Source: Chloroflexota bacterium (GTDB taxonomy: Bacteria; Chloroflexota; UBA6077; FW602-bin22; JACPRP01). Taken from it: 64,000 bases of DNA. Both the position numbers and the translations under genes were made by a program. Below are positions 4,420 through 49,729 of the stretch, piece by piece. The notes beneath the pieces are model-generated. The model had not been told where the DNA came from. It was given only the letters and a program-made list of their open reading frames with translations, and ran no database searches. Positions within the stretch are counted from its first letter, which is position 1, and every line of letters begins with the position of its first letter. The stretch is from contig JACPRP010000001.1 of NCBI GenBank assembly GCA_016189905.1, positions 62,001-126,000 of the forward strand, given 5' to 3'.

Positions 4420-5406
4420 TCAAAGCTCCCCAAAACTGCGTAACGCCTCGAAATCGTACATCGTGCTCATCGCCCTGTTTTCGCAAACGATTCCCGCTTC
4501 GTCGGCCGCCGCCAAAGGATTCAGCCCGCCGATGATAACAATCCCTACCCGATTAACGCCCACCGGCACGTCCAGCAGTTCGCCGCCCGGCTTGCCCACC
4601 GTGATCAGGCCGCGCAGCCCTATCTGATTGATCTTGTCGAGCATTGACTCTACGGCCGGCTGGCAAATCGCCGGGATTTCGCGGAAGCTGGCGAGAATCT
4701 TCCCTTCGCCAACCTTGGCGGCCTCACGAACGCTCGTCATTTTGCTACGAATGAAAATTTCCAGTGGATCCAACGAGGAGCCAGAATAGCTTATCAACTC
4801 CGTGAACCGCGAGGGCTTGTAGTCCTTAACCTGCAAGATGCCCCCAAACCGCGACTCGACGGGAACGCCGGCCCGCAGAAGAATTCCGTTGATCGTCACG
4901 CTGCAAATCGTGCCAAACCCCACGTAGCCTTTCGGAATGAGAATGTCGCCGAGCTTCTCCCCTTCCTCAGCCACCGCAACCAGGTCGCTGACGCAGTGCT
5001 GCGCCGCGAATACGTCGCGCATCACGGAGATCGCCTTTTTGAACCTGGCGGCGGGAAACAGGGTGGTGTTGAGGATGATCTGACCCTTGCGCGTAGCCAG
5101 ATCGAAGGTGGTGAGGTGAGACAGCGTGTCGATCTTGTTGATGATCAGGCCAACCTTGTCCGAGACCAACGCGTTCGACATCTCGTCGAGGCCCTTTTCG
5201 GTGATCACCCTTCCCTCCTTGCCGTTGTTCCGGGTGAGACCGCGCTCGTCGAGCAGTTGAAGATGATATCTAACTGCGCGCTCCGTGAGGTGGACGCCAT
5301 ACGGTTCCAACTGACGCGAGATCACCCTCGCTCCGAGCGGCTCACAAGCGCCGCTCAGAACCCTGAGTATGGCCAGCACTTTTCTCTCGACATCGTGATT
5401 AAGCAT
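4420..5406 (-). CDS. nrpR: NrpR-type transcriptional repressor (winged HTH plus DUF128/NrpR regulatory domain)
   Basis: N-terminal HTH (KVLAILRVLSGACEPLGARVISRQLEPYGVHLTERAVRYHLQLLDERGLTRNNGKEGRVITEKG) followed by a DUF128-like domain (KGYVGFGTICSVTINGILLRAGVPVESRFGGILQV; VGIVIIGGLNPLAAADEAGI). Confidence 0.8.
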   Translation of the reverse strand: MLNHDVERKVLAILRVLSGACEPLGARVISRQLEPYGVHLTERAVRYHLQLLDERGLTRNNGKEGRVITEKGLDEMSNALVSDKVGLIINKIDTLSHLTTFDLATRKGQIILNTTLFPAARFKKAISVMRDVFAAQHCVSDLVAVAEEGEKLGDILIPKGYVGFGTICSVTINGILLRAGVPVESRFGGILQVKDYKPSRFTELISYSGSSLDPLEIFIRSKMTSVREAAKVGEGKILASFREIPAICQPAVESMLDKINQIGLRGLITVGKPGGELLDVPVGVNRVGIVIIGGLNPLAAADEAGIVCENRAMSTMYDFEALRSFGEL

Positions 5407-28236: not shown

Positions 28237-28986
28237 TCACTCACCAGAAGAATTCCAGATATACTCGACCAGTATATCGATCTCCGCGGCAGTGCCGATT
28301 TTTCCCCACGCTGGCATGTAGACAACTCCTGGTCGGCCTTGATCGACCAGTCTGCCGTGCAAGACAACGCTTCTAACCATCTCCCGCGAGCCGAACTTCT
28401 GTTTGAAACCTGGTCCGCCTATTTTCGGGATGATCTGGTGCGATGGGGAGGATGCCGCTTGGTTGCGGATCCCACCAGTTCCCAATGGGCCGTGGCATTT
28501 TGTACAGGCGAAAGATGTGTAGATCTCCTGGCCGGTCCTGGTGCCCGATACTGGCACGTTCAGATTCGGCAATCCGGCCCTGATGTAGGCAACGATATCG
28601 CCGATCTCCTCATCGGAGAGGATGCTATTCCAGGCTGGCATCGAAGCCACGCCATCTTTTTCGATGATCGCGCCATTCTTGATCATCTGGAGGAGCGCGC
28701 CGTCGAATTCGGCACCTTTCGGAAAAGTCTTCTTAAACTCGGCGGAGACGAGGGATGGTCCGGAGGCGGGGAGCAGATCCCGTCCTCGACCTCCAAGTCC
28801 GTGGCATCGCACGCAGCCAAAATCCACGTAGAGCCACGCCCCGTTCTTTACCTCTGGCGAATACTGCCCGCGCGCCGCCTCCAACTCTCCATCGGGGACG
28901 GCCCGTTGCGCACACGCGGCGACGATGATGACGAAAAGCAGCAGAAGCGATACCTGTAATCCTCGCCGTAGCTTCACTTTGTGCAC
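28237..28986 (-). CDS. Diheme cytochrome c lipoprotein
   Basis: Lipobox VIIVAAC; CVRCHG and CTKCHG. Confidence 0.9.
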   Translation of the reverse strand: MHKVKLRRGLQVSLLLLFVIIVAACAQRAVPDGELEAARGQYSPEVKNGAWLYVDFGCVRCHGLGGRGRDLLPASGPSLVSAEFKKTFPKGAEFDGALLQMIKNGAIIEKDGVASMPAWNSILSDEEIGDIVAYIRAGLPNLNVPVSGTRTGQEIYTSFACTKCHGPLGTGGIRNQAASSPSHQIIPKIGGPGFKQKFGSREMVRSVVLHGRLVDQGRPGVVYMPAWGKIGTAAEIDILVEYIWNSSGE

Positions 28987-29137
28987 CCCTTTGCTTAACT
29001 TTCGATCCTCGATCCTTAGTTTCGAAGACCCAACAGATGGCGAGAATGCAATTGCTATGCATCAGGTCCACATTACAGTGTGGCTGCAACGACATCAGCG
29101 TCGCCGGGTTCATGAACTTTAACTATTTGTGATGATC

Positions 29138-31258
29138 TTAACGGCCACCGGCCATTGCCTTGAAGAACTCGAGCAGAGCCGCGATGTCATCCTTGCTGAT
29201 TGGCCCTCCTTTCTCCTCTCCCCACGATGGCATCGCGCCCTTGCCGTTTGCGATGCTCATTCCCAACGCTGCATCTCCACGCTCCTGTAACCAGGCAGCG
29301 TCAGCCAGCTTCGCCTCCGAGACTCTGTCACGGCTCTGGCCGTGGCAGGCCTGGCAGTTCTTGGCATACAGGTCTCGTCCGCGCGCGGCGTCACCGCTGA
29401 GCTTCACTTCGACGCGCTGGCCAGACCCCGAGCCCGACGCGGCCTGTCCGCCGCGAGCCGCTTCATTCAAATAGGCGAGAACCGCGGCAATATCGTCCGG
29501 GCTCAGCGGTCCACCTTTCTCTTTACCCCACGCCGGCATGAGCTCCTTGCCATTGGCGATGCTCTGACTCAAAGCATTATCGCCGCGCTGCTGGAGCCAA
29601 TCCGCATCGCCCAGCTTCGCCGTTGGCATCGTACTTCGATTCTCGCCATGGCACGTCCCGCAGTACTTGGCGTAGATCTCCTTGCCCTTTGCCGTGATGC
29701 CACCCGGCCCCGCGGCGCTATTGTTGCCAGGCACCGCTGGCGGGTTGTTCGTCGTCGACGCTGATACGCCGGCCGCCGACTTCAAGTACGCGAGCACCGC
29801 CGCGATGTCGTCCTGGCTGAGCTGGCCACCCTTCTCCTTGCCCCAGGCAGGCATCGCACCTTTGCCGTTAGCGATACTTTGAGCCATGGCGGCGTCGCCG
29901 CGCTGCTGAAGCCAGCTAGCATCCGCAAGCTTTGCAGAGGGCAGCAGGTCACGGGCTGCGCCATGGCAAACCGTGCAACTCTTGGTGAAGATATCCTTCC
30001 CACGAGCGACCACAGAGTCACCGGCCTGGGCCGGCGGCGCAGGGGGAGCGTCTCCGGCCGGCGGCGAGGTCTCAGCGACACCCCGCAGATAATCGACCAG
30101 GCTCTTGATTTCAGCCGGCGATAGCGGTCCACCAGATGCCTGGCCCCATGCGGGCATGCCCCGGGTATTGCCCTGACTGATCTGGCGCTGGAGCGCTTCG
30201 TCCGAGCGGGCCCCGAGGAACTCAGGAGATCTAAGGTTGGCGCCAGCGACCTTATTGCCGCCTTCGCCGTGACACCCCGCGCAGCTATTAATATAGAGAT
30301 CGCGACCCTGGCTGGCCTTCTCTGGACCGATCAGCGCCGTATCGGCTGGGAGCCCTGCCGAAGACTTTAGATAGGCAAGGATAGCGCCGATCTGCGATGC
30401 CTGAAACGTGCCGCCCTTTGACGGCCCGAAGCCAGGCATTACCCCACTCCCTTCTGAGACCACCGAGGTGAGCCTGCCATCGCCAAGTCGACGAAGCAAC
30501 TCTGGGGTCGTGAGGGCGACATTCGGCACCAGGTTGCCGCGCTCGCCGTGGCAGTGGAGACAACTGGCCATATAGAGGTCACGCCCCTGGCGTACTTCCT
30601 CGGCCGTTGCCGCCTCAGCATTATAGCGCAAGTAAGAGACGAGCGCTTGCACCTGCTCCTCGCTGAGTGGATTCGGCACCCCTGAACGGAAAGCTGGCAT
30701 CGGACTCTTCCCATCGCTGATGACATCGATCAACTGAGCATCGGTTCGCGAATTAAGGAAGCTCTTCTCGGCCAGCGGCACCGCCGGGATGCGGTCGCCC
30801 CTGTCGCCGTGACAGCGGGCGCACTCTTGCTGGAAGACGGTCCGGCCAGAGCTGGCGAGGATAGTCGGGCTCGTACGCCCGGCGGAGGCATTCAGATAGG
30901 CCACCACGGCGCTGATCTGATCGCGCGTGAGCGGGCCACCGCGCTCATCACCCCACGCCGGCATCACCCCCTTACCTCCGCTGATCGCGCTAAACAGGGT
31001 GGCATCGCCACGCAGGTCGAGAAATTCCTTGATGTTCAATGGGGCGACCGGCACACGGTCACCCTTCTCACCGTGGCACGCAACGCAGTTGGCTACATAA
31101 ACCTGCCGGCCTGCCGAAATGGCATCGTCACGCGTCTCAGGTGCCGAACCCTGTAGCGCTGTGCAACCGGCAAAGGCGAGTGCGGCAAAGATGAGTAGGA
31201 TCATCAGCCGGGCCGGACTCGACGGCCACGTCGCAACTTGGGACTGCTGCTCTGTCAT
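29138..31258 (-). CDS. Seven-domain (heptaheme) cytochrome c lipoprotein
   Basis: Seven CxxCH motifs: CVACH, CARCH, CLHCH, CAGCH, CTVCH, CGTCH, CQACH, each followed by ...MPxW/F...AxLxY; lipobox LAFAGC. Confidence 0.93.
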   Translation of the reverse strand: MTEQQSQVATWPSSPARLMILLIFAALAFAGCTALQGSAPETRDDAISAGRQVYVANCVACHGEKGDRVPVAPLNIKEFLDLRGDATLFSAISGGKGVMPAWGDERGGPLTRDQISAVVAYLNASAGRTSPTILASSGRTVFQQECARCHGDRGDRIPAVPLAEKSFLNSRTDAQLIDVISDGKSPMPAFRSGVPNPLSEEQVQALVSYLRYNAEAATAEEVRQGRDLYMASCLHCHGERGNLVPNVALTTPELLRRLGDGRLTSVVSEGSGVMPGFGPSKGGTFQASQIGAILAYLKSSAGLPADTALIGPEKASQGRDLYINSCAGCHGEGGNKVAGANLRSPEFLGARSDEALQRQISQGNTRGMPAWGQASGGPLSPAEIKSLVDYLRGVAETSPPAGDAPPAPPAQAGDSVVARGKDIFTKSCTVCHGAARDLLPSAKLADASWLQQRGDAAMAQSIANGKGAMPAWGKEKGGQLSQDDIAAVLAYLKSAAGVSASTTNNPPAVPGNNSAAGPGGITAKGKEIYAKYCGTCHGENRSTMPTAKLGDADWLQQRGDNALSQSIANGKELMPAWGKEKGGPLSPDDIAAVLAYLNEAARGGQAASGSGSGQRVEVKLSGDAARGRDLYAKNCQACHGQSRDRVSEAKLADAAWLQERGDAALGMSIANGKGAMPSWGEEKGGPISKDDIAALLEFFKAMAGGR

Positions 31259-31279
31259 CCCGTTGTACCCCCCCTGTCC

Positions 31280-31720
31280 TTACTTGTTCATCGACTTTAG
31301 ATAGGCGGTGATCGCCGTCAGGTCGTAATCGCTAACATCCCGCTCCGCAAAAACCGGCATGCCACCCGGGCCCCGACGGACGTTCTCACGCAGCACCTCG
31401 AGGTCTGGTATAGGGCGCGGACCGACAGCGCCGCCTTCTCCATTTACACCGTGGCATCCGGCGCAGCCGTACGCAACATATAGGGCCTTGCCGCGCTCCT
31501 CCATCGGCGCAGTGGCGTCGACCTGGATGGAGAGTGACGCGGGTCGGTAGAGCCGGGGTGGGCCAACCTCCGCCTGCTCGGTGCGGGTGTAACCTGAATC
31601 GAAACGCGATACCAAGTTCGCGTGGGTATATGGGCTGCGCAGGGCCACCCCAATCAAAGTGGCGGGTAACACCACGACAACGATCGTGGCGATGATTGGC
31701 ACGGCGAAACGATGGTTCAT
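31280..31720 (-). CDS. Membrane-anchored monoheme cytochrome c
   Basis: N-terminal TM; CAGCHGVNGEGG; start MNHRF at 31720. Confidence 0.88.
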   Translation of the reverse strand: MNHRFAVPIIATIVVVVLPATLIGVALRSPYTHANLVSRFDSGYTRTEQAEVGPPRLYRPASLSIQVDATAPMEERGKALYVAYGCAGCHGVNGEGGAVGPRPIPDLEVLRENVRRGPGGMPVFAERDVSDYDLTAITAYLKSMNK

Positions 31721-32448
31721 TGGCCCTCTCCTTTCCGTCGCACACCAGACGCACCGGCATGCACGGACTGGGACGACAGAGTACCGCTGCCGCCTGCCGA
31801 AGCAATCCGAAATATCTGGCTCACCGCGACACCATATAACGACCAGATAGTCAGCAGCACCAGGACTATTGGCCACACGCTAAGCGTAGGCCAGAGCGCC
31901 CCCAGCCCTGTCGCTGGAGACCCAGATCCATGCGCATTCATTTCTGCATTCGATTGTTGACCGCCCGGCGCCGTGTTCAAGCCAGGGATCTGCACTCCTG
32001 CGTGCTGGACATACAGTTGCTGCGCAGGCTCGTCGACCAGAAACCGGTCCGTAGCTCTCGCCGATGTATAGCGGTCATTACCACGAAACTCGGCGCGAAC
32101 ATCGAGCCAACCCGGGTTCCGTACCGAATACTCCGTCTCGGCCACCCCTTCCTTATCGGTCTGAACCTCGGCGATCAAGACATCGGCGGTGGAGCCGAGG
32201 AAAAAAGTGTTGGGCACGACGAAAGCGACCTTGACGCCGGCGAGTGGCGCGCCAGCGGCGTCGACCAGTTTCGCGCCAAGCTTCACGTTCTCTCCCACCT
32301 TCGGCGTCTTCCCGATCGAAAGGCTGATTTTCGTGGCGTTTGCGTGCGTCTCAGCGAAAGCTACTCCCGCCCACGCCGGAGCGAGCAAAGCGAGCAAAGC
32401 ACACAACAAGGCGGCCGACCGGATTCCCTTGACTGTCCTGCAGTTCAT
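31717..32448 (-). CDS. Signal-peptide protein with Ig-like domain and C-terminal TM helix, unknown function
   Basis: Signal peptide ...AWAGVAFAE; beta-rich VGENVKLGAKLVDAAGAPLAGVKVAFVV..; TM VWPIVLVLLTIWSLYGVAV; 4-bp overlaps with both neighbours. Confidence 0.7.
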   Translation of the reverse strand: MNCRTVKGIRSAALLCALLALLAPAWAGVAFAETHANATKISLSIGKTPKVGENVKLGAKLVDAAGAPLAGVKVAFVVPNTFFLGSTADVLIAEVQTDKEGVAETEYSVRNPGWLDVRAEFRGNDRYTSARATDRFLVDEPAQQLYVQHAGVQIPGLNTAPGGQQSNAEMNAHGSGSPATGLGALWPTLSVWPIVLVLLTIWSLYGVAVSQIFRIASAGGSGTLSSQSVHAGASGVRRKGEGQ

Positions 32449-33866
32449 ACCCCACTCCTTTCCGGGAGACTACGTGGTTCGGGCGCGCGCTGAGGTTCCA
32501 GATCTGCCATAGGCACCGATCCAGGCTCGGGCCCCCTATGCTCGACGACCTCCCATACCGATACCATTGGGAAAAGCTTTACTGCCACCGAGATAATCAG
32601 GGCGAATTGCGCAAAGGCGCCGGCGAGGATCGACCATTCTACCCATGTCGGTGAGTAGCTCGCCGGCTCGTAGGGCATCAGTGGAACGCGAAAGCCCGCG
32701 GCGACGATGAGGTAGCGCTCGATCCACATCGCGATCAGCACCAGAACGGCGGCGACGCAGATCCCTTTTACGTTGCGTGTTTGCGGGAACAGAATAATCA
32801 GACCGGGCACGATCATGCCACCGATGATATAGAACCAGAACTGGACGGAAAACATTCCAACCATCAACTGCTCGAAGTGAAAGCCCGCCTCGCCGGCCAT
32901 CTTGTAGCCGACGGTAACATACTCGTTGAGGTTCGCGTAGGCCATGATCAACGCGAAAGCCCCGAGCATATAGCCCAGACATAGGAACTGCGTCCTGGTG
33001 ACATATTCTTCGAGGCGCAGGAGACGCCTGAGCACCGCCATCAGCAGAATGATGGCGGCAATGCCGGAGTAGATCGCCCCCGCGACGAAGTAGGGGCCAA
33101 AAATGGTACTGTTCATCCCCTCGCGCAGCGTCATAGCAAAGATCCACGAGACCACCGTGTGCACGGAGACTGCCACAGGGATGATGACGATCATCATTAT
33201 CGTCAACGCTCGATCGAGCGCCTTGCGCTGTGCCTCCGTGCCAGTCCACCCCACCGCTGCGACGGTAAAGAAGAGGCGCTTCCAGCGCGGCGCCGTCGGT
33301 CCCAGACGGTCACGACAGAGCGCAAAATCCGGTATAAGCGGCAGGACCAGATAAATCGCGCTGCCCGTAAGATAGGTGCAGATCGCCAACACGTCCCAAA
33401 GCAGGGGCGACTGCCAGCGACCATAAAAGATCATGTTAAGAACTCGGTCGGGACGACCCAAGTCGATCAGTGGGAAAAGGGCACCCACCATCAGCGCGAC
33501 GACGGTGATGAACTCCGCCATGCGCGTGATCGAGAGCTGCCAGCGTGCTTTGGTGACACGCAGAATCGCAGATAAGAGCGTGCCGGCGTGGCTTATACCG
33601 ATGAAGAACACGAAGCTAATAATATAGACGCCCCAGGAGATGCGATCGCGCATGCCCGTCACAATCAGGCCACGATCCCATTGTTGGCTGTAGGCATAGA
33701 ACGCCCAAAGCAGGACCGCCACGAGGAAACCCACCCAAGCGAAATAGGCCGGGCTGCTGCCCGCCAATGGTCGCAAGACACGCCTTTCGAGGCGCTCGCG
33801 CCATTCAGGCGTCACGCCGGGGTGGGCGTGATTGGCGTGCTCACCTTGCATCCTTACCGTGTCCAT
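32445..33866 (-). CDS. NrfD/PsrC/ActC-like polytopic quinone-interacting membrane subunit
   Basis: ISWGVYIISFVFFIGISHAGTLLSAILRVTKARWQLSITRMAEFITV; about 10 hydrophobic segments. Confidence 0.9.
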   Translation of the reverse strand: MDTVRMQGEHANHAHPGVTPEWRERLERRVLRPLAGSSPAYFAWVGFLVAVLLWAFYAYSQQWDRGLIVTGMRDRISWGVYIISFVFFIGISHAGTLLSAILRVTKARWQLSITRMAEFITVVALMVGALFPLIDLGRPDRVLNMIFYGRWQSPLLWDVLAICTYLTGSAIYLVLPLIPDFALCRDRLGPTAPRWKRLFFTVAAVGWTGTEAQRKALDRALTIMMIVIIPVAVSVHTVVSWIFAMTLREGMNSTIFGPYFVAGAIYSGIAAIILLMAVLRRLLRLEEYVTRTQFLCLGYMLGAFALIMAYANLNEYVTVGYKMAGEAGFHFEQLMVGMFSVQFWFYIIGGMIVPGLIILFPQTRNVKGICVAAVLVLIAMWIERYLIVAAGFRVPLMPYEPASYSPTWVEWSILAGAFAQFALIISVAVKLFPMVSVWEVVEHRGPEPGSVPMADLEPQRAPEPRSLPERSGV

Positions 33867-34804
33867 GTCTCACCTCCATCGGAACTCCTCTGCCACGACC
33901 AGACAGTCGGCTTGCGTCCCTTTTTGTATGGGTTACGCCCCACATTCTGGCCGTAGCCCGGGATGTAGTAGACGCGCGGTTCGGTGCCGAGGTCCTCCTT
34001 CAAGTGATAGCTGGAGTTGTAACTGGCGAAGCGCGAAAACTGGACCACCTGAACGCCATTTGTCGCGAGATCCTCTTCCAGGTCGCCGTAGTAGATCGCG
34101 TTGTTCGGGCAGGCCTGCGCGCAATAGGGGAGACGACCTGAGCGCGCCATATGGGGGCAGAAGTTGCACTTCATCACCGTCCCCTTGTAAGCCGGCGACT
34201 GATTCTCGGGATTGTACGTCTGGAAGATCGTCTCGGGCGGCTGCGTTGGCTGGCCCCAGTTGAAGAAGCGGCGGTCATAGGGGCAGGCTTCCATGCAGAT
34301 CCGGCAGCCGATGCAGCGCTCCTGGTCAATCAGCACGATGCCCTCGGGACTATGGAAAGTCGCGCCGACCGGACATACGTTGGTGCAGGGAGAGTTTTGA
34401 CACTGCTGGCACGGTGTCGGAATGAACTGCGTTCCCCCGCCGGGGAGCTCCGCCTCGTACGTCTCAATCCATTCCATCGGTTCTGGGGCGTAATGGCCCT
34501 GGACGCATGCCTGTGTGCACTGTGGTGGCTTGCCCACTGATTGGCAGCCATCACAGGAGCGCAGGTCGATGATCATCGCCCAGCGGCGCACTCGCTTCTC
34601 AGTATCGCCAATCGCTTGGGCTACAGTGTGCTGATGTGCTTTATCCTCAGGCGATTGGCGCGCCGCGCCGAGGACCGGCTTCGCTAGCGCTCCCATTGCG
34701 CCGCTTGCCGCGGCTATGAAAGCCCATTTTAGAATGGAGCGTCGGCCCAGACGCAGCCTCTCTGATCGCCGCCCGTCAGCAGAACCTCCAATCTGTTCGG
34801 TCAT
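33854..34804 (-). CDS. Tat-exported 4Fe-4S ferredoxin subunit (PsrB/NrfC/ActB2-like)
   Basis: LGRRSILKWAFIAAASGAMG; CDGCQSVGKPPQCTQAC, CQQCQNSPCTNVCP, CIGCRICMEACP, CNFCPHMARSGRLPYCAQACP. Confidence 0.92.
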   Translation of the reverse strand: MTEQIGGSADGRRSERLRLGRRSILKWAFIAAASGAMGALAKPVLGAARQSPEDKAHQHTVAQAIGDTEKRVRRWAMIIDLRSCDGCQSVGKPPQCTQACVQGHYAPEPMEWIETYEAELPGGGTQFIPTPCQQCQNSPCTNVCPVGATFHSPEGIVLIDQERCIGCRICMEACPYDRRFFNWGQPTQPPETIFQTYNPENQSPAYKGTVMKCNFCPHMARSGRLPYCAQACPNNAIYYGDLEEDLATNGVQVVQFSRFASYNSSYHLKEDLGTEPRVYYIPGYGQNVGRNPYKKGRKPTVWSWQRSSDGGETWTR

Positions 34805-34869
34805 GCAATCTCTCCTTCCTTTGGTCCAAACGGTGTTGCCTGAACAGTGTGACCCGTAGGACAGTGTTT

Positions 34870-35613
34870 TCAGTCGAAGTTCCAGATATAGTCGACGATC
34901 CGGTCGATCTCTTCGGCCGTACCGATTCTGCCCCACGCGGGCATATAGACCACTCCTGGTCGACCTTGATCCACCAGACTGCCGTGCAGTATCACCGCTC
35001 TAACATTGGCGGGCGAGCCGAACTTTCCGCGAAAATCCGCTCCGCCAAGCTTCGGGATGGTCCTCTGTTCTGGATTAGAAGCGGCGATGTTGCGGATTCC
35101 CCCGACGCCCAGCTCGCCGTGACACTTGCTGCAGGCAAATGAACTGTAAATCTCTTGGCCCGTCCTTGTACCTGGGATCGGTAGGCCCAGGTCCGGCAGT
35201 CCGGCCCTGATATATGCGACGATGTCCCCCATATTTTCGTCGGTGAGAATGCCATTCCAGGCTGGCATGGACGCGACCCCATCTTTCTCGATAATTGCGC
35301 CGTTCTTGATCATTTGGACGAGTGCGCTGTCGAATTGCGGACCTTTGGGAAAGGCTTTCTTGAAGTCGGTTGACACGAGAGACGGCCCGGCAGCGGGCAT
35401 CAGATCGCGTCCTCGCCCTCCCAGGCCGTGGCATTGGACACAGCCATAGTTGACGTAGAACCATCCTCCGTTTGTGACCTCAGCCGAATACTGCACGCCC
35501 TCACCTGACGACGAAGTGCCAGAAACCGTTCCTCGCGAGCATGCGACGATGACGATGGCAGATAAGAACAGTATTAATAACAGTGATCCTCGCCAAACTT
35601 TCAATTCACGCAC
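34870..35613 (-). CDS. Diheme cytochrome c lipoprotein, paralog of 28237-28986
   Basis: Lipobox AIVIVAC; CVQCHG, CSKCHG; near collinear with the other copy. Confidence 0.9.
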   Translation of the reverse strand: MRELKVWRGSLLLILFLSAIVIVACSRGTVSGTSSSGEGVQYSAEVTNGGWFYVNYGCVQCHGLGGRGRDLMPAAGPSLVSTDFKKAFPKGPQFDSALVQMIKNGAIIEKDGVASMPAWNGILTDENMGDIVAYIRAGLPDLGLPIPGTRTGQEIYSSFACSKCHGELGVGGIRNIAASNPEQRTIPKLGGADFRGKFGSPANVRAVILHGSLVDQGRPGVVYMPAWGRIGTAEEIDRIVDYIWNFD

Positions 35614-36041: not shown

Positions 36042-36698
36042 CTAAAGGTTCAACTGGATTACGCCGCGTCGAATAGCGTACTTGATCAAATCCGCGCGGC
36101 TGCGAAGGTTCAGCTTTTCCATTATTCGACTGCGATACGTCTGAATGGTGCTGACGCTGAGCGTCAGCTTGGTGGCGATGTCCTGGTTCGTGAAACCTTC
36201 CGCTATCAGACGAAGGACTTCACGCTCTCGCGTCGTAAGCGACTCGTAGGTGTCCTTTTCCTCCCCGAATCTCAAGCGCCGCAAGTATTCGGTTACCAGT
36301 CGCTTGCCGAGCGAGGGAGGAAAGTAGATCTCACCGCGACATACGGCCCTAATGGCGAGCGGTATCTCGGCCGATGCGGCCCCCTTGAGGACATACCCGG
36401 CCGCGCCGGCGTTTAGGCTGCGAAAGAAGTAGTCGTCGCCATCGTGGACGGTCAGCGTGACCACTTTGGCCGATGGGCAAAGCTTTTGCAGTTGGCGCGT
36501 TGCCTCAATCCCATTCATTCCAGGAATGCCCAGATCCATCACGACCACGTCTGGCTGCAGCTCCACCGTTTTCTTGACGGCCGAATCTCCATCCGATGCC
36601 TCGCCAATAACCTCGATATCCGGCTCGCACTGAAGCAGCAAGCGAATCCCGTCGCGTACAATACCGTGATCGTCAACCACGAGAACTCGAATCTTCAT
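36042..36698 (-). CDS. NarL/FixJ (LuxR-type) response regulator
   Basis: VLVVDDHGIVRDGIRLLL...DVVVMDLGIPGMNGIEA; LTTREREVLRLIAEGFTNQDIATKLTLSVSTIQTYRSRIMEKL. Confidence 0.95.
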   Translation of the reverse strand: MKIRVLVVDDHGIVRDGIRLLLQCEPDIEVIGEASDGDSAVKKTVELQPDVVVMDLGIPGMNGIEATRQLQKLCPSAKVVTLTVHDGDDYFFRSLNAGAAGYVLKGAASAEIPLAIRAVCRGEIYFPPSLGKRLVTEYLRRLRFGEEKDTYESLTTREREVLRLIAEGFTNQDIATKLTLSVSTIQTYRSRIMEKLNLRSRADLIKYAIRRGVIQLNL

Positions 36699-36703
36699 TC
36701 CCG

Positions 36704-39025
36704 CTACCCTCCCTCTGCTATCGGAACCTTAATCGTTAACTGGGTTCCCTTTCCTGGTAATGAACGAATGACGAGCGAGCCTCCGAGAAGCTCAACCCGC
36801 TCGCGCATCCCCAGTAAGCCTAGCTGCCTGCCATCGGCAGCGTGTCCCACATCTTCCAGTTGGAATCCCCGCCCATTATCTTCGACAGACGCCATCAGCA
36901 ACCCGTCGGAGCAGCGTAATCTGATCCAGGCCTTTGTAGCACCCGCGTGCTTGGCGATGTTCGTGATGGCCTCCTGCAAGATGCGGTATACCTCAGTTTC
37001 TACTTGAGTGGCCATGCGTTCTTGAAGCCCCAGAATAGATACGTTAACGCGGATATCCTCCACTTCTAAGCGTTGCTGCGCGTATGATCGGATGGCTGCG
37101 CCAAGGCCGATGTCGTCGAGGACGGTGGGGCGAAGGTCCAGGATCATCTGTCGAACGTCGGTCAAGGCGCGCTCGCTCAAAGCTTTCGCCTGTCCCAACC
37201 GCTCGCGCTGGGCGTCAGGAATGTCGGATCGGCCGGCTTCGATAGCTTCCAAGGACATTCTCACAACGGCCAGCGCTTGCGCGAACCCGTCGTGGAGCTC
37301 TCGTGCGATGCGCCGCCTCTCCTCTTCCTGAGCGGTAATGACCTTCATCAACAGTCTGCCGCGCAGCTCCTCTTTCTGCTGAACCTCTTCATAGAGTTGG
37401 GCATTGTCCAGGGCAATCGCCGCCTGGTAGGCGATTGCCTGAAGGGCTTTCAACCCCGCCTGGGAGAAGGAAGAAGGCTCTTTGAAGTCATAAACGATGA
37501 GAATGCCGAGCGTTCCTCGCTTGGCGACCAGGGGAACGCACATGGCGTATTGAGAACCATCCACCGTGAGCCCGGCGGCCTTAAACGTACGGCTGTTTTC
37601 GGGGGTCAGATTCAGGTTTTCGTCCGTCAAGACGCGATCTGGCAGACAAACTGGCCGGCCGCTTTCGAAAACCCTTCCGATCACGCCCTCGCCGGGCCTC
37701 AAACGAGCTTCACGTAAAGCCTCGATGTCGCACCCAAAGCTGGCAACGGGAACGAGCCTGCCGAGGTGCGGCTCAAGCATTACCATCACGCCGGCATCGG
37801 CGTCCGGGCACACGCGCCTGGACTCGGTTAGGATTATGTTCAGCAGTACGGAAAGATCAAGGGTCGAGGTGAATGCCTCTGACGCAGCCAGCAAAGCGGT
37901 TACCTCGCCGGCCCGTTGCTCGGCCTCCTTCTCTAAATCAGCCTCGTACTGTTCCCTCTTATCGATCAGGTCTCGCAGCCTCTGGCGCATAGTCTCCACG
38001 GACTCCGTCAGCGTGCCTATCTCGTCTACCCGCTGCGACCGTGGGATCGGGCTCGCGAGGTCTCCTGATCCAATTCGGGCGGCGGCCAGCGTCAGCGCAT
38101 TTATAGGTTTGACCACGCGGCGGATGTCGACCCAGGCGACGGTGACGGCAACGATGAGCGAAATGGCACCAAAGGCAAACAACTGCCTCTCCAGGTCCTG
38201 GGCCAGGTCTAGCGTTGTGTACAGCGGTTGCTCCATAAGAACTCCCCAGCCAGGTACGCTAACCATTGGCGCATATGCAACGGTGTGCCGTGGCAAGCCT
38301 GGGACGTCGTGCACAACCACACCGGCTCTGCGCTCTCGAAGGAACTGGGCTATTATGTTGGCGTGTACGTTACGCCGATACCTGATACCCGTCTCGCTCG
38401 AGCTCGCCAGCACCAGGTTCTGATTCACGAGCTCCACCGCCACGGCACCCTGGTCAGCCGAGTGAAGCGTGATATGGAAGCCTGTCGCATCAGGATCCAG
38501 TTCTGCCATCAGCACACCGATGATGGCACGGGACTGATTTCGCACGGGGACTGATAAGCAGGCTAACGTTTTCCCCCCGTCTATCTGTGAGCGCCATTCG
38601 GCCACCTGCGGCTCGCCAGTGATTAAAGCTGCCCCGGCCGCCGGATGGGTCAAAAAGAAATCAGTATCATCCGTGGCTAGCTTTGGTGGCTCGCCAGCCA
38701 CGACCTTACCAGACATATCCAACAACCTGATTTCGGCAAAACCCCCAAGGCGTATTGCAGTATCGCGCAGAATTTCCCTTTTTAGCCCCAAGTCGGCATC
38801 CTCTCGCATAATGCCGGGGAACTCGGCGGTTTTCTTGAGGACCCCGATCGAATGATCCATCATGCCATCCAGGTGGCTGGCGATGGCCTCGGCAAGGACG
38901 AGGCGGGCCTCGGCGTCGGCATCGTTGCTCTTGCCGAGCGCCCATCTACCCAGATAGCCAAAAATGAGCATTACCACGAACAGACTCAAAACTACAGTCA
39001 GGATCATCCGGTACTGCAGCTTCAT
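36704..39025 (-). CDS. Sensor histidine kinase: periplasmic sensor, HAMP, GAF, HisKA_3-HATPase (NarX-like)
   Basis: RRIARELHDGFAQALAVVRMSLE; VYRILQEAITNIAKHAGATKAWI; VEDNGRGFQ; HAMP and GAF-like segments. Confidence 0.92.
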   Translation of the reverse strand: MKLQYRMILTVVLSLFVVMLIFGYLGRWALGKSNDADAEARLVLAEAIASHLDGMMDHSIGVLKKTAEFPGIMREDADLGLKREILRDTAIRLGGFAEIRLLDMSGKVVAGEPPKLATDDTDFFLTHPAAGAALITGEPQVAEWRSQIDGGKTLACLSVPVRNQSRAIIGVLMAELDPDATGFHITLHSADQGAVAVELVNQNLVLASSSETGIRYRRNVHANIIAQFLRERRAGVVVHDVPGLPRHTVAYAPMVSVPGWGVLMEQPLYTTLDLAQDLERQLFAFGAISLIVAVTVAWVDIRRVVKPINALTLAAARIGSGDLASPIPRSQRVDEIGTLTESVETMRQRLRDLIDKREQYEADLEKEAEQRAGEVTALLAASEAFTSTLDLSVLLNIILTESRRVCPDADAGVMVMLEPHLGRLVPVASFGCDIEALREARLRPGEGVIGRVFESGRPVCLPDRVLTDENLNLTPENSRTFKAAGLTVDGSQYAMCVPLVAKRGTLGILIVYDFKEPSSFSQAGLKALQAIAYQAAIALDNAQLYEEVQQKEELRGRLLMKVITAQEEERRRIARELHDGFAQALAVVRMSLEAIEAGRSDIPDAQRERLGQAKALSERALTDVRQMILDLRPTVLDDIGLGAAIRSYAQQRLEVEDIRVNVSILGLQERMATQVETEVYRILQEAITNIAKHAGATKAWIRLRCSDGLLMASVEDNGRGFQLEDVGHAADGRQLGLLGMRERVELLGGSLVIRSLPGKGTQLTIKVPIAEGG

Positions 39026-47944: not shown

Positions 47945-49729
47945 TTAGTCTAGTCGGCCAACGGTATCCCAGGTTATGTTATCCCAGGTGACGTTGTCCC
48001 AGGTGACATTGTCCCAGGTGACGTTATCCCAGGTGATGTTATCCCAGGTGATGTTGTCCCAGGTGACGTTGTCCCACGTAATGTTGTCCCACGTAATGTT
48101 GTCCCAGGTGATATTATCCCACGTAATGTTGTCCCAGGTGATATTACCCCACCGAATCCCCCGCGAGTCGACGCCACCGTTGAAGCTCAGATCCTTCCAC
48201 ACCAGAGGCGATTTGCCTTTGATCCAGGGCAACACCAGTACCGCCAGCGAATCTGCTGGTCTGGCCGATTGTTTTCGCTTCGCGATATCGCCTTCCACGG
48301 CTCTGGAGGCGTCCACATAGCCAGCCCCCGCCGAGTTGGCGTCGAAGCCGGTTATGCTGGTCGCCGATGACATCAAGCGTGCCTTAACGTCATCTGGAGT
48401 CAGACGAGGGTTCTTGTCGAGCAAGAGTGCGGCCACGCCCGAGACCACAGCCGCGGCCTGGGATGTGCCAGTCAGTCGAAAATAGCTCTTATCGACGACG
48501 CGGTCAGGAAGGAGCCGGTCCAGATAGCTCTTGGGCACTCGGGTTGAAACCATCTTTCGTCCCGGCGCCACCACATCTGGCTTCGCCAAGCCATCGTTCG
48601 TCGGCCCGCGAGATGAGAACCAGCTAATGACGTCATCACCACGTTTTTCCGTGGCGTTCATATCCACCGCGCCAACGGTGACGACATAAGGATCGTAGCC
48701 AGGGGTCGAAACTGTTCCGGCAGCAGGTCCCTGATTGCCTGCCGAAACCACCACTACGAGGCCGGCGTGCCAGGCTATCTCGACCGCGGCGGCTAGCGGA
48801 TCATTCTTATATGAGCCGGTTGCCGGCGCGCCAAGTGAAATGTTGACGATATCGATACCGTAGGTCTTGCGGTTCTGAACGACCCATTGAATCCCTTTGA
48901 TAACCGTGGACATGCGGGCTATGCCCTTATCGTTGACGACGCGCACGGATACGATGTTGGCTTCAGGAGCAATCCCGCTCCAGTCGTCGCCTTGTCCGGC
49001 GATAATGCCGGCCACATGTGTGCCATGTCCACCTGGATCGTCCAGTTTTCTGGAGCCCTTGACCAGATCGATAGACGCCACCAGCCGATTCGGGTCCACT
49101 CCGTGAGGGAGAGGCTCAACTCCTGAATCTATTACTGCTACAGTAACCCCTGACCCGTCAACGCCCTTATCCCATACCGCCTCGGCGTTCACGGCCCTGG
49201 TGAAATCCACCATGTCACCGCTGAACGGGCTTCCTCCGTCTCCCTTCGGTGATTTTTGCCGGCCAGCCATTCTAGTGGTTGAATCCACCATGTCACTGAT
49301 GAACGGGCTTCCAGCGGGAGTCAGCAACACATCACGGGTAATATACCGAACACCTGGCTCGCGGCTCAGGACGGAGAGGCGATCGATGCTAATCCTACCA
49401 CTGGCACCTCTGACAATCCCCAGACTCTCCGTGGCCGCACCGCCGTGCTTTTCGAGCGCACCTTTCGCTTTATGTTCGGGCTTGTCCCCGACCTGCAGTG
49501 CTGCGGTGGAATCTGTTGCGTCCATCTGTACGATAACAGGCACTGTACCGTGTTTGTTCGAAGCAAGCATGGACCGCAAATCGGGCGAGAGTTTCTCCCA
49601 AGCGGGATCCTGGCCGGAGCCATTCCCGCCGGCTTGCACGGCCAACGTGAACGGCCCGAGAAGAATTCCTATCGCCACGAGGATTGTGACTATCAGCCTA
49701 ACGCATCTCTCAATCGTCATAGCCCCCAT
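47945..49729 (-). CDS. S8 family serine protease (subtilase) with C-terminal WDN[I/V]T repeat tail
   Basis: VTVAVIDSGVEPLPHG, HGTHVAGIIAGQG, TGTSQAAAVVSGVAALLL; 13-unit tail. Confidence 0.94.
   Translation of the reverse strand: MGAMTIERCVRLIVTILVAIGILLGPFTLAVQAGGNGSGQDPAWEKLSPDLRSMLASNKHGTVPVIVQMDATDSTAALQVGDKPEHKAKGALEKHGGAATESLGIVRGASGRISIDRLSVLSREPGVRYITRDVLLTPAGSPFISDMVDSTTRMAGRQKSPKGDGGSPFSGDMVDFTRAVNAEAVWDKGVDGSGVTVAVIDSGVEPLPHGVDPNRLVASIDLVKGSRKLDDPGGHGTHVAGIIAGQGDDWSGIAPEANIVSVRVVNDKGIARMSTVIKGIQWVVQNRKTYGIDIVNISLGAPATGSYKNDPLAAAVEIAWHAGLVVVVSAGNQGPAAGTVSTPGYDPYVVTVGAVDMNATEKRGDDVISWFSSRGPTNDGLAKPDVVAPGRKMVSTRVPKSYLDRLLPDRVVDKSYFRLTGTSQAAAVVSGVAALLLDKNPRLTPDDVKARLMSSATSITGFDANSAGAGYVDASRAVEGDIAKRKQSARPADSLAVLVLPWIKGKSPLVWKDLSFNGGVDSRGIRWGNITWDNITWDNITWDNITWDNITWDNVTWDNITWDNITWDNVTWDNVTWDNVTWDNITWDTVGRLD
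47957..48151 (-). repeat. 15-bp coding tandem repeat, 13 units (WDN[I/V]T)
   Basis: Repeated ..GTTGTCCCAGGTGAC.. on plus strand; WGNIT-(WDN[IV]T)x11-WDTVG. Confidence 0.95.
49199..49312 (-). repeat. 36-bp imperfect direct repeat (78-bp offset) inside the subtilase gene
   Basis: GGTGAAATCCACCATGTCACCGCTGAACGGGCTTCC and GGTTGAATCCACCATGTCACTGATGAACGGGCTTCC. Confidence 0.85.

Follow-up and report, generated by a model that had tools for sequence, protein, structure and literature searches.

Among the closest described systems to the operon studied here is Alternative Complex III (ACIII; ActABCDEF, e.g. PDB entries 6f0k, 6btm, 6lod and 8k9e), which oxidises quinol and passes the electrons to cytochrome c. 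ACIII contains the 10-TM NrfD-type protein ActC, a molybdopterin-like subunit without cofactor and an Fe-S subunit for which one [3Fe-4S] and three [4Fe-4S] clusters are listed (PMC8076601 Table 1). NrfD complexes that lack a molybdopterin (Mo) subunit altogether, called Mo-free below, are already known, namely Nrf, Mcc, Nhc, Dsr and Hyb (PMC8076601). In NrfABCD, Mcc and Nhc, a Mo-free FeS-NrfD quinone module is coupled to the multiheme c-type cytochromes NrfA, MccA and NhcA, and 8 TM helices are predicted for NrfD and MccD (PMC8076601). The DsrJOP part of DsrMKJOP is likewise Mo-free and combines a Tat-exported Fe-S protein carrying four [4Fe-4S] clusters with a 10-TM NrfD protein and a c-type cytochrome. 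Qrc also has a 10-TM NrfD protein, QrcD; its further subunits are QrcA with 6 hemes, QrcB, and QrcC, which contains a [3Fe-4S] cluster (PMC8076601).

Here, we analysed an operon on a 64,000-nucleotide stretch of Chloroflexota DNA, the whole of which is referred to as the window. As proposed in the original prediction, the operon has parts in common with ACIII, namely an ActC-homologous NrfD protein, an Fe-S protein with homology to the B2 domain and a monoheme cytochrome c; it lacks ActA, ActB1, ActD and ActF. In our best reading of the sequences, it belongs to a separate lineage of ActC-like NrfD modules that have no Mo subunit, and represents a new variant of the FeS-NrfD redox module. A literature search covering titles, abstracts and partial full text returned no description of the cluster, and a Mo-free ActC-like lineage with an Ig/TM subunit and single-heme cytochromes, which we did not find described there, is apparently new to the literature.

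Gene content and layout of the operon

Seven ORFs, all on the minus strand, lie between positions 28237 and 35613 and encode, in 5' to 3' order, a diheme cytochrome c (c2a), a Tat-exported Fe-S protein (FeS), a NrfD-like protein, a protein with an Ig-like domain and a TM helix (Ig/TM), a monoheme cytochrome c (c1), a seven-domain cytochrome c (c7) and a second diheme cytochrome c (c2b; Table 1). ORF reading and Pfam searches confirmed this predicted order as well as the absence of an ActA-type pentaheme and of an ActB1/Mo-domain gene: no molybdopterin-type or pentaheme gene was found in the operon, including a five-heme gene that could code for the nitrite reductase NrfA. The range given in the original prediction covers the seven genes, but it missed an upstream pair of the same neighbourhood, a LuxR-type regulator gene approximately 430 bp upstream of c2a and a histidine kinase gene 5 bp before the regulator. 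The window is one of 13 loci, among the 32 Mo-free loci described below, in which a pair of this kind is found directly upstream of the core.

Table 1. Genes of the operon and of the adjoining two-component system
Feature	Position	Strand	Basis
Sensor histidine kinase	36704..39025	-	Weak dCache match, HAMP, GAF, HisKA_3, HATPase (Pfam)
LuxR/GerE-type response regulator	36042..36698	-	Pfam Response_reg and GerE; 5 bp after kinase
c2a, diheme class-I cytochrome c lipoprotein	34870..35613	-	Two CxxCH, lipobox-like VACS, Pfam
Tat-exported FeS subunit	33854..34804	-	16 cluster cysteines (four [4Fe-4S], predicted); ORF open from 34936
NrfD-like 10-TM quinone-binding subunit (predicted)	32445..33866	-	PF03916; nearest solved structure ActC; trees
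Ig/TM subunit	31717..32448	-	Weak Big_1, AlphaFold2 model; homologues after NrfD in most loci
c1, TM-anchored monoheme class-I cytochrome c	31280..31720	-	Pfam; ORF open from 31876
c7, lipoprotein with seven tandem class-I cytochrome c domains	29138..31258	-	Seven CxxCH
c2b, diheme class-I cytochrome c lipoprotein, c2a paralogue	28237..28986	-	Pfam, comparison with c2a

Pfam searches identified NrfD (118.9 bits), four Fer4-type cluster motifs in the FeS protein and class-I cytochrome c domains with 2, 1, 7 and 2 hemes in c2a, c1, c7 and c2b, respectively. As in NrfD/PsrC-FeS modules, NrfD adjoins a four-cluster Fe-S protein. The genes for FeS, NrfD, Ig/TM and c1 overlap by 4-13 bp and c7 begins 21 bp further on, and these five genes therefore look like a single transcription unit. 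FeS translation probably starts at the ATG at 34804 instead of at 34936, which would place the Tat motif near the N-terminus, and c1 probably starts at 31720, with a 4-bp overlap with the Ig/TM stop codon. Promoter and terminator scans gave signals near the shuffled expectation.

The two diheme proteins c2a and c2b are paralogues (67% identity), and no close homologue of c2a was found at 1e-20 among 60 relatives. In c7, each of the seven CxxCH motifs is followed downstream by a conserved MP motif, and the last three domains are 56-60% identical. A single other close c7 homologue was found in 151 genomes; it is approximately 50-55% identical and has no NrfD gene nearby. As homologues are absent or nearly absent among the relatives, c7 and the two diheme proteins are, judging by this distribution, local and lineage-specific additions. 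The locus of the c7 homologue, L138 (G023:C188, 7203-13176), adjoins a hexaheme gene.

For the Ig/TM protein, the AlphaFold2 model (pLDDT 61) predicts a signal helix, a 7-strand Ig-like sandwich and a C-terminal TM helix at residues 192-218, and a fold search with this model returned generic Ig-like matches only. The gene is located at the position of actD, and the ActD reference is not the best BLAST match of its product.

Conserved core and position in the NrfD family

We sampled 399 genomes, all of the window's own phylum, of which 25 had a NrfD match at 1e-85, and annotated the neighbourhoods from same-strand ORFs and by BLAST against window and reference proteins. FeS-NrfD pairs with which no gene for a Mo subunit, a pentaheme protein or ActD is associated were found at 32 loci in 20 of the 399 genomes, the window included; several of these loci end at contig edges, where the absence of a gene carries less weight. 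When both strands were checked at the 31 non-window loci, one Mo-family gene was found within the flanks covered (L047), on the opposite strand and accompanied by Fe-S and Rieske genes of its own. Genes for ActD or a pentaheme protein are absent next to all Mo-free loci on either strand. Seventeen of the 32 loci are of the window's type (type 1), in which Ig/TM is followed by c1; a c1 homologue is present in all the others of this type except one, which a contig edge cuts before these genes. In 14 loci (type 2), Ig/TM is followed by a protein that we call x241 and an IPT/TIG protein, and no cytochrome gene was spotted nearby on the same strand. A single locus, L098, is unlike both types. The recurrence of FeS-NrfD-Ig/TM in 20 genomes places the gene cluster beyond chance. 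From this gene content, the conserved core is FeS-NrfD-Ig/TM, with c1 added in one sub-branch, and not the set of seven genes that had been regarded as a minimal complex. The sole genome of the same family that was searched (G001) gave no match to the window NrfD at 1e-30, and presence of the module is therefore patchy.

Several of the related loci have features of their own. The genes for x241 and the IPT/TIG protein end the operons at L048, L051, L052, L055, L086, L092, L097, L100-L103 and L106-L110. x241 has no Pfam match, and its residues Cys129 and His180 are invariant in 17/17 aligned sequences; the IPT/TIG protein of type-2 operons has several near-invariant His residues and one Cys. 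We speculate that the two proteins are possibly metal-binding partners. No match to x241 was found in the window's genome. At L043, L048 and L097, the Ig/TM protein is extended at its N-terminus by a cupredoxin-like part containing a CxxxCxxH motif (L043:7145-8620, L048:7170-8087), which is missing in the window. FeS and NrfD apparently form one 766-aa open frame at L091 (G247:C25), a possible fusion or lost stop. At L098 (G095:C9), a c1-like segment and the Ig part are joined in a single long frame; the segment shows FRRRAGPH at the expected CxxCH, the heme motif apparently having been lost. At L053 (G038:C544), two multiheme genes that encode MtrC/F-like domains come after NrfD, and the contig ends before the FeS gene; a role of this locus in extracellular electron transfer is possible.

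Phylogenetic trees separate the window NrfD from ActC. In the trees that included DsrP, ActC formed its own clade (98/100, 100/100 and 100/100) with the window NrfD outside. The 32 Mo-free NrfD rows formed one clade in two trees (100/98) and were paraphyletic (89/65) in one tree, which held a mistranslated outgroup row (L006) that was then removed; in a further tree, a single Mo-free clade was not rejected (p-AU 0.40). The Mo-free rows lie on one side of a branch (100/100) in the FeS trees, and FeS and NrfD trees agree in placing the window lineage outside ActC. A position of NrfD firmly inside a characterised complex, the outcome named as counting against the original prediction, was sought in these trees and not found, with ActC and DsrP forming separate clades.

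The closest PDB match of the window NrfD is ActC (190 bits to 6f0k_C), with which it shares the 10-TM NrfD/ActC homology; its match to QrcD is 61 bits only (cut-off 570). In two genomes of the same phylum, ActC is nearly the same protein as chain 8k9e_C, from Chloroflexus, which makes Chloroflexota the probable phylum of the sampled genomes. In the alignment, the window FeS protein has 16/16 cluster cysteines, whereas all five canonical ActB2 sequences tested have Thr at window position Cys211 and thus one cysteine fewer, which fits the [3Fe-4S] cluster listed for ACIII (PMC8076601). All 16 cysteines are also present in the other Mo-free FeS proteins, except for alignment gaps in L100 and L101. 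The quinone sites differ as well: in the numbering of R. marinus ActC (PMC8076601, PMC5928083), every ActC tested has H139, S164, D169, D253 and R395, and the window NrfD has D135, S153, D158, I242 and R384 at these positions. His139 is kept in four type-2 members, D253 is not. H139 and D253 are missing from the Mo-containing sister clusters too, which likewise have 16 cysteines, and these changes are therefore independent of whether Mo is lacking. Based on the cysteine, quinone-site and tree tests, we conclude that the window operon is not an ACIII.

Rooted with ActF, the NrfD tree pointed to a single loss of the Mo gene, and the root became unstable when DsrP and group-D outgroups were added; whether the Mo gene was lost or never gained therefore depends on the root. 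We tentatively put forward, as an idea short of an even chance, that Chloroflexota have a widespread, undescribed Mo-free NrfD class in which Ig/TM replaces ActD. This class would be either a pre-ACIII state, from before the recruitment of a cofactor-less molybdoprotein, or an ACIII-like complex that shed the molybdoprotein and the multihemes yet passes quinol electrons to single-heme cytochromes.

Proposed route and direction of electron flow

On balance, we favour the view that the operon encodes a Mo-free menaquinol:cytochrome c oxidoreductase, which would share its reaction with ACIII. The earlier interpretation is thus partly supported: a new variant of a quinol:cytochrome c oxidoreductase is still the best functional guess, but the absence of Mo alone does not make it new, given the Mo-free complexes listed above. 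The residues S153, D158 and D135 of the window NrfD fit quinone binding. S153 and D158 are shared with ActC (residues from PMC5928083, PMC8076601), together with the gate arginine (R384) and the N-side proton path except for R114, which is replaced by Q110. With quinone-site and N-side residues largely kept, NrfD probably binds menaquinol near the outer membrane face, as in ActC. The P-side half-channel is partly kept, with Y323 changed to N312 and E338 to A327 in the window, and pumping by the ActC route is therefore uncertain.

If the proteins assemble into a complex, the Tat-exported FeS protein would carry the electrons via its four [4Fe-4S] clusters to the TM-anchored c1, which is a candidate for the first acceptor because of its constant position after the Ig/TM gene. 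The Ig/TM protein might act as a membrane-anchored scaffold, in the place that ActD has in ACIII. In the window lineage, c7 and the paired diheme lipoproteins could relay electrons onward, to a terminal oxidase (a caa3-like oxidase adjoins the genome's ACIII) or to an extracellular acceptor, and the two-component system may control expression of the operon. Such tandem single-heme class-I domains differ from the multiheme partners of the Nrf, Mcc and Nhc modules. As no cytochrome gene was seen beside the type-2 core, cytochrome c cannot be a co-encoded partner throughout. Should the Mo-free complex oxidise menaquinol, the B1 domain would not be needed for that step, and the complex would be a possible additional point of entry into respiration in a group of which few members have been cultured, as well as a plausible electron source for the seven-domain cytochromes.

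We infer the direction from quinol to cytochrome from the relation to ActC and from the class-I cytochromes. Asp135 is also present in the quinone reductases QrcD and HybB, and electron flow could therefore be reversed: the cytochromes would be reduced by a donor in the periplasm or outside the cell and FeS-NrfD would reduce menaquinone, as in Qrc or Nhc. The Asp in place of His139, which QrcD, HybB and NhcC share (PMC8076601), would be in line with this, as would four [4Fe-4S] clusters and no [3Fe-4S] cluster, like in NhcB, seven tandem hemes that could bring electrons inward, and the MtrC/F-like multihemes beside NrfD at L053, an apparently Mo-free relative whose FeS gene was not seen. However, Asp is also found in PsrC of W. 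succinogenes and in DsrP, so the residue does not set the direction, and the nearest solved relatives are quinol oxidisers. In addition, class-I His/Met cytochromes usually have potentials too positive for the reduction of menaquinone. We consider reversed flow unlikely and retain menaquinol oxidation as the preferred reading.

Relation to DsrMKJOP and to the ACIII of the same genome

One might also suspect a DsrJOP-like module, in which the Tat-exported FeS protein, NrfD and cytochrome c serve a sulfur-type pathway with a cytoplasmic partner. The best family match of the FeS protein is indeed DsrO (166.7 bits, cut-off 200), for which a type-2 homologue scores above the cut-off (211.7), and D and I/L residues of the window NrfD are like those of DsrP. 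By comparison, QrcC is the family that the tested canonical ActB2 and Mo-sister FeS protein resemble most. However, the operon has no DsrM, DsrK or triheme DsrJ, and the score of its NrfD for DsrP is 144, where the cut-off is 350. DsrP above this cut-off was found in four phylum relatives, three of them with M-K-J-O-P order, and these proteins form their own clade (100/100) and have Lys at window Arg384. With the DsrO and DsrP scores of the window proteins below the cut-offs and three Dsr components absent, membership in DsrMKJOP was rejected, and we regard a DsrJOP-like function as improbable. Genuine DsrP genes in DsrMKJOP order are located at L132, L133 and L135 in the same phylum.

Searches of the window's own genome (3.53 Mb, with a completeness of 86%) gave 20 matches to the molybdopterin family and eight to NrfD. 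A cluster on contig C116 encodes a pentaheme protein, a molybdopterin-family protein, an Fe-S protein, an ActC-like protein that shares approximately 45% identity with the window NrfD, a two-TM protein at the ActD position and a monoheme protein, with caa3-type-oxidase-like genes just upstream. By its gene content, this cluster is a complete-looking ACIII, separate from the window operon, and the Mo-free operon therefore coexists with ACIII. The genome search for a Mo subunit suggested in the original prediction thus found one elsewhere, but it belongs to this separate ACIII, which has its own Fe-S and ActC-like proteins. That the window FeS and NrfD are parts of a degenerate or auxiliary ACIII, assembled with ActA and ActB1 from this other locus, might be suggested by the similarity of the two NrfD proteins, but is highly improbable, as the C116 locus has its own B2 and C components, cluster cysteines and quinone-site residues differ between the two sets and the Mo-free loci lack neighbouring ActD and pentaheme genes. 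A pairing in trans of the operon with one of the 20 molybdopterin-family proteins is conceivable. The Mo-free lineage and an ACIII with its cofactor-less subunit in one genome provide a natural comparison.

An Rfam scan of the 64-kb window gave no matches. Elsewhere in the window, a 15-bp unit is repeated approximately 11.7 times at 47967-48142, within a subtilase gene (47945-49729) in the part for the C-terminal end, and NrpR-type regulatory domains (PF01995), which are better known from archaeal nitrogen control, are encoded at 4420-5406.
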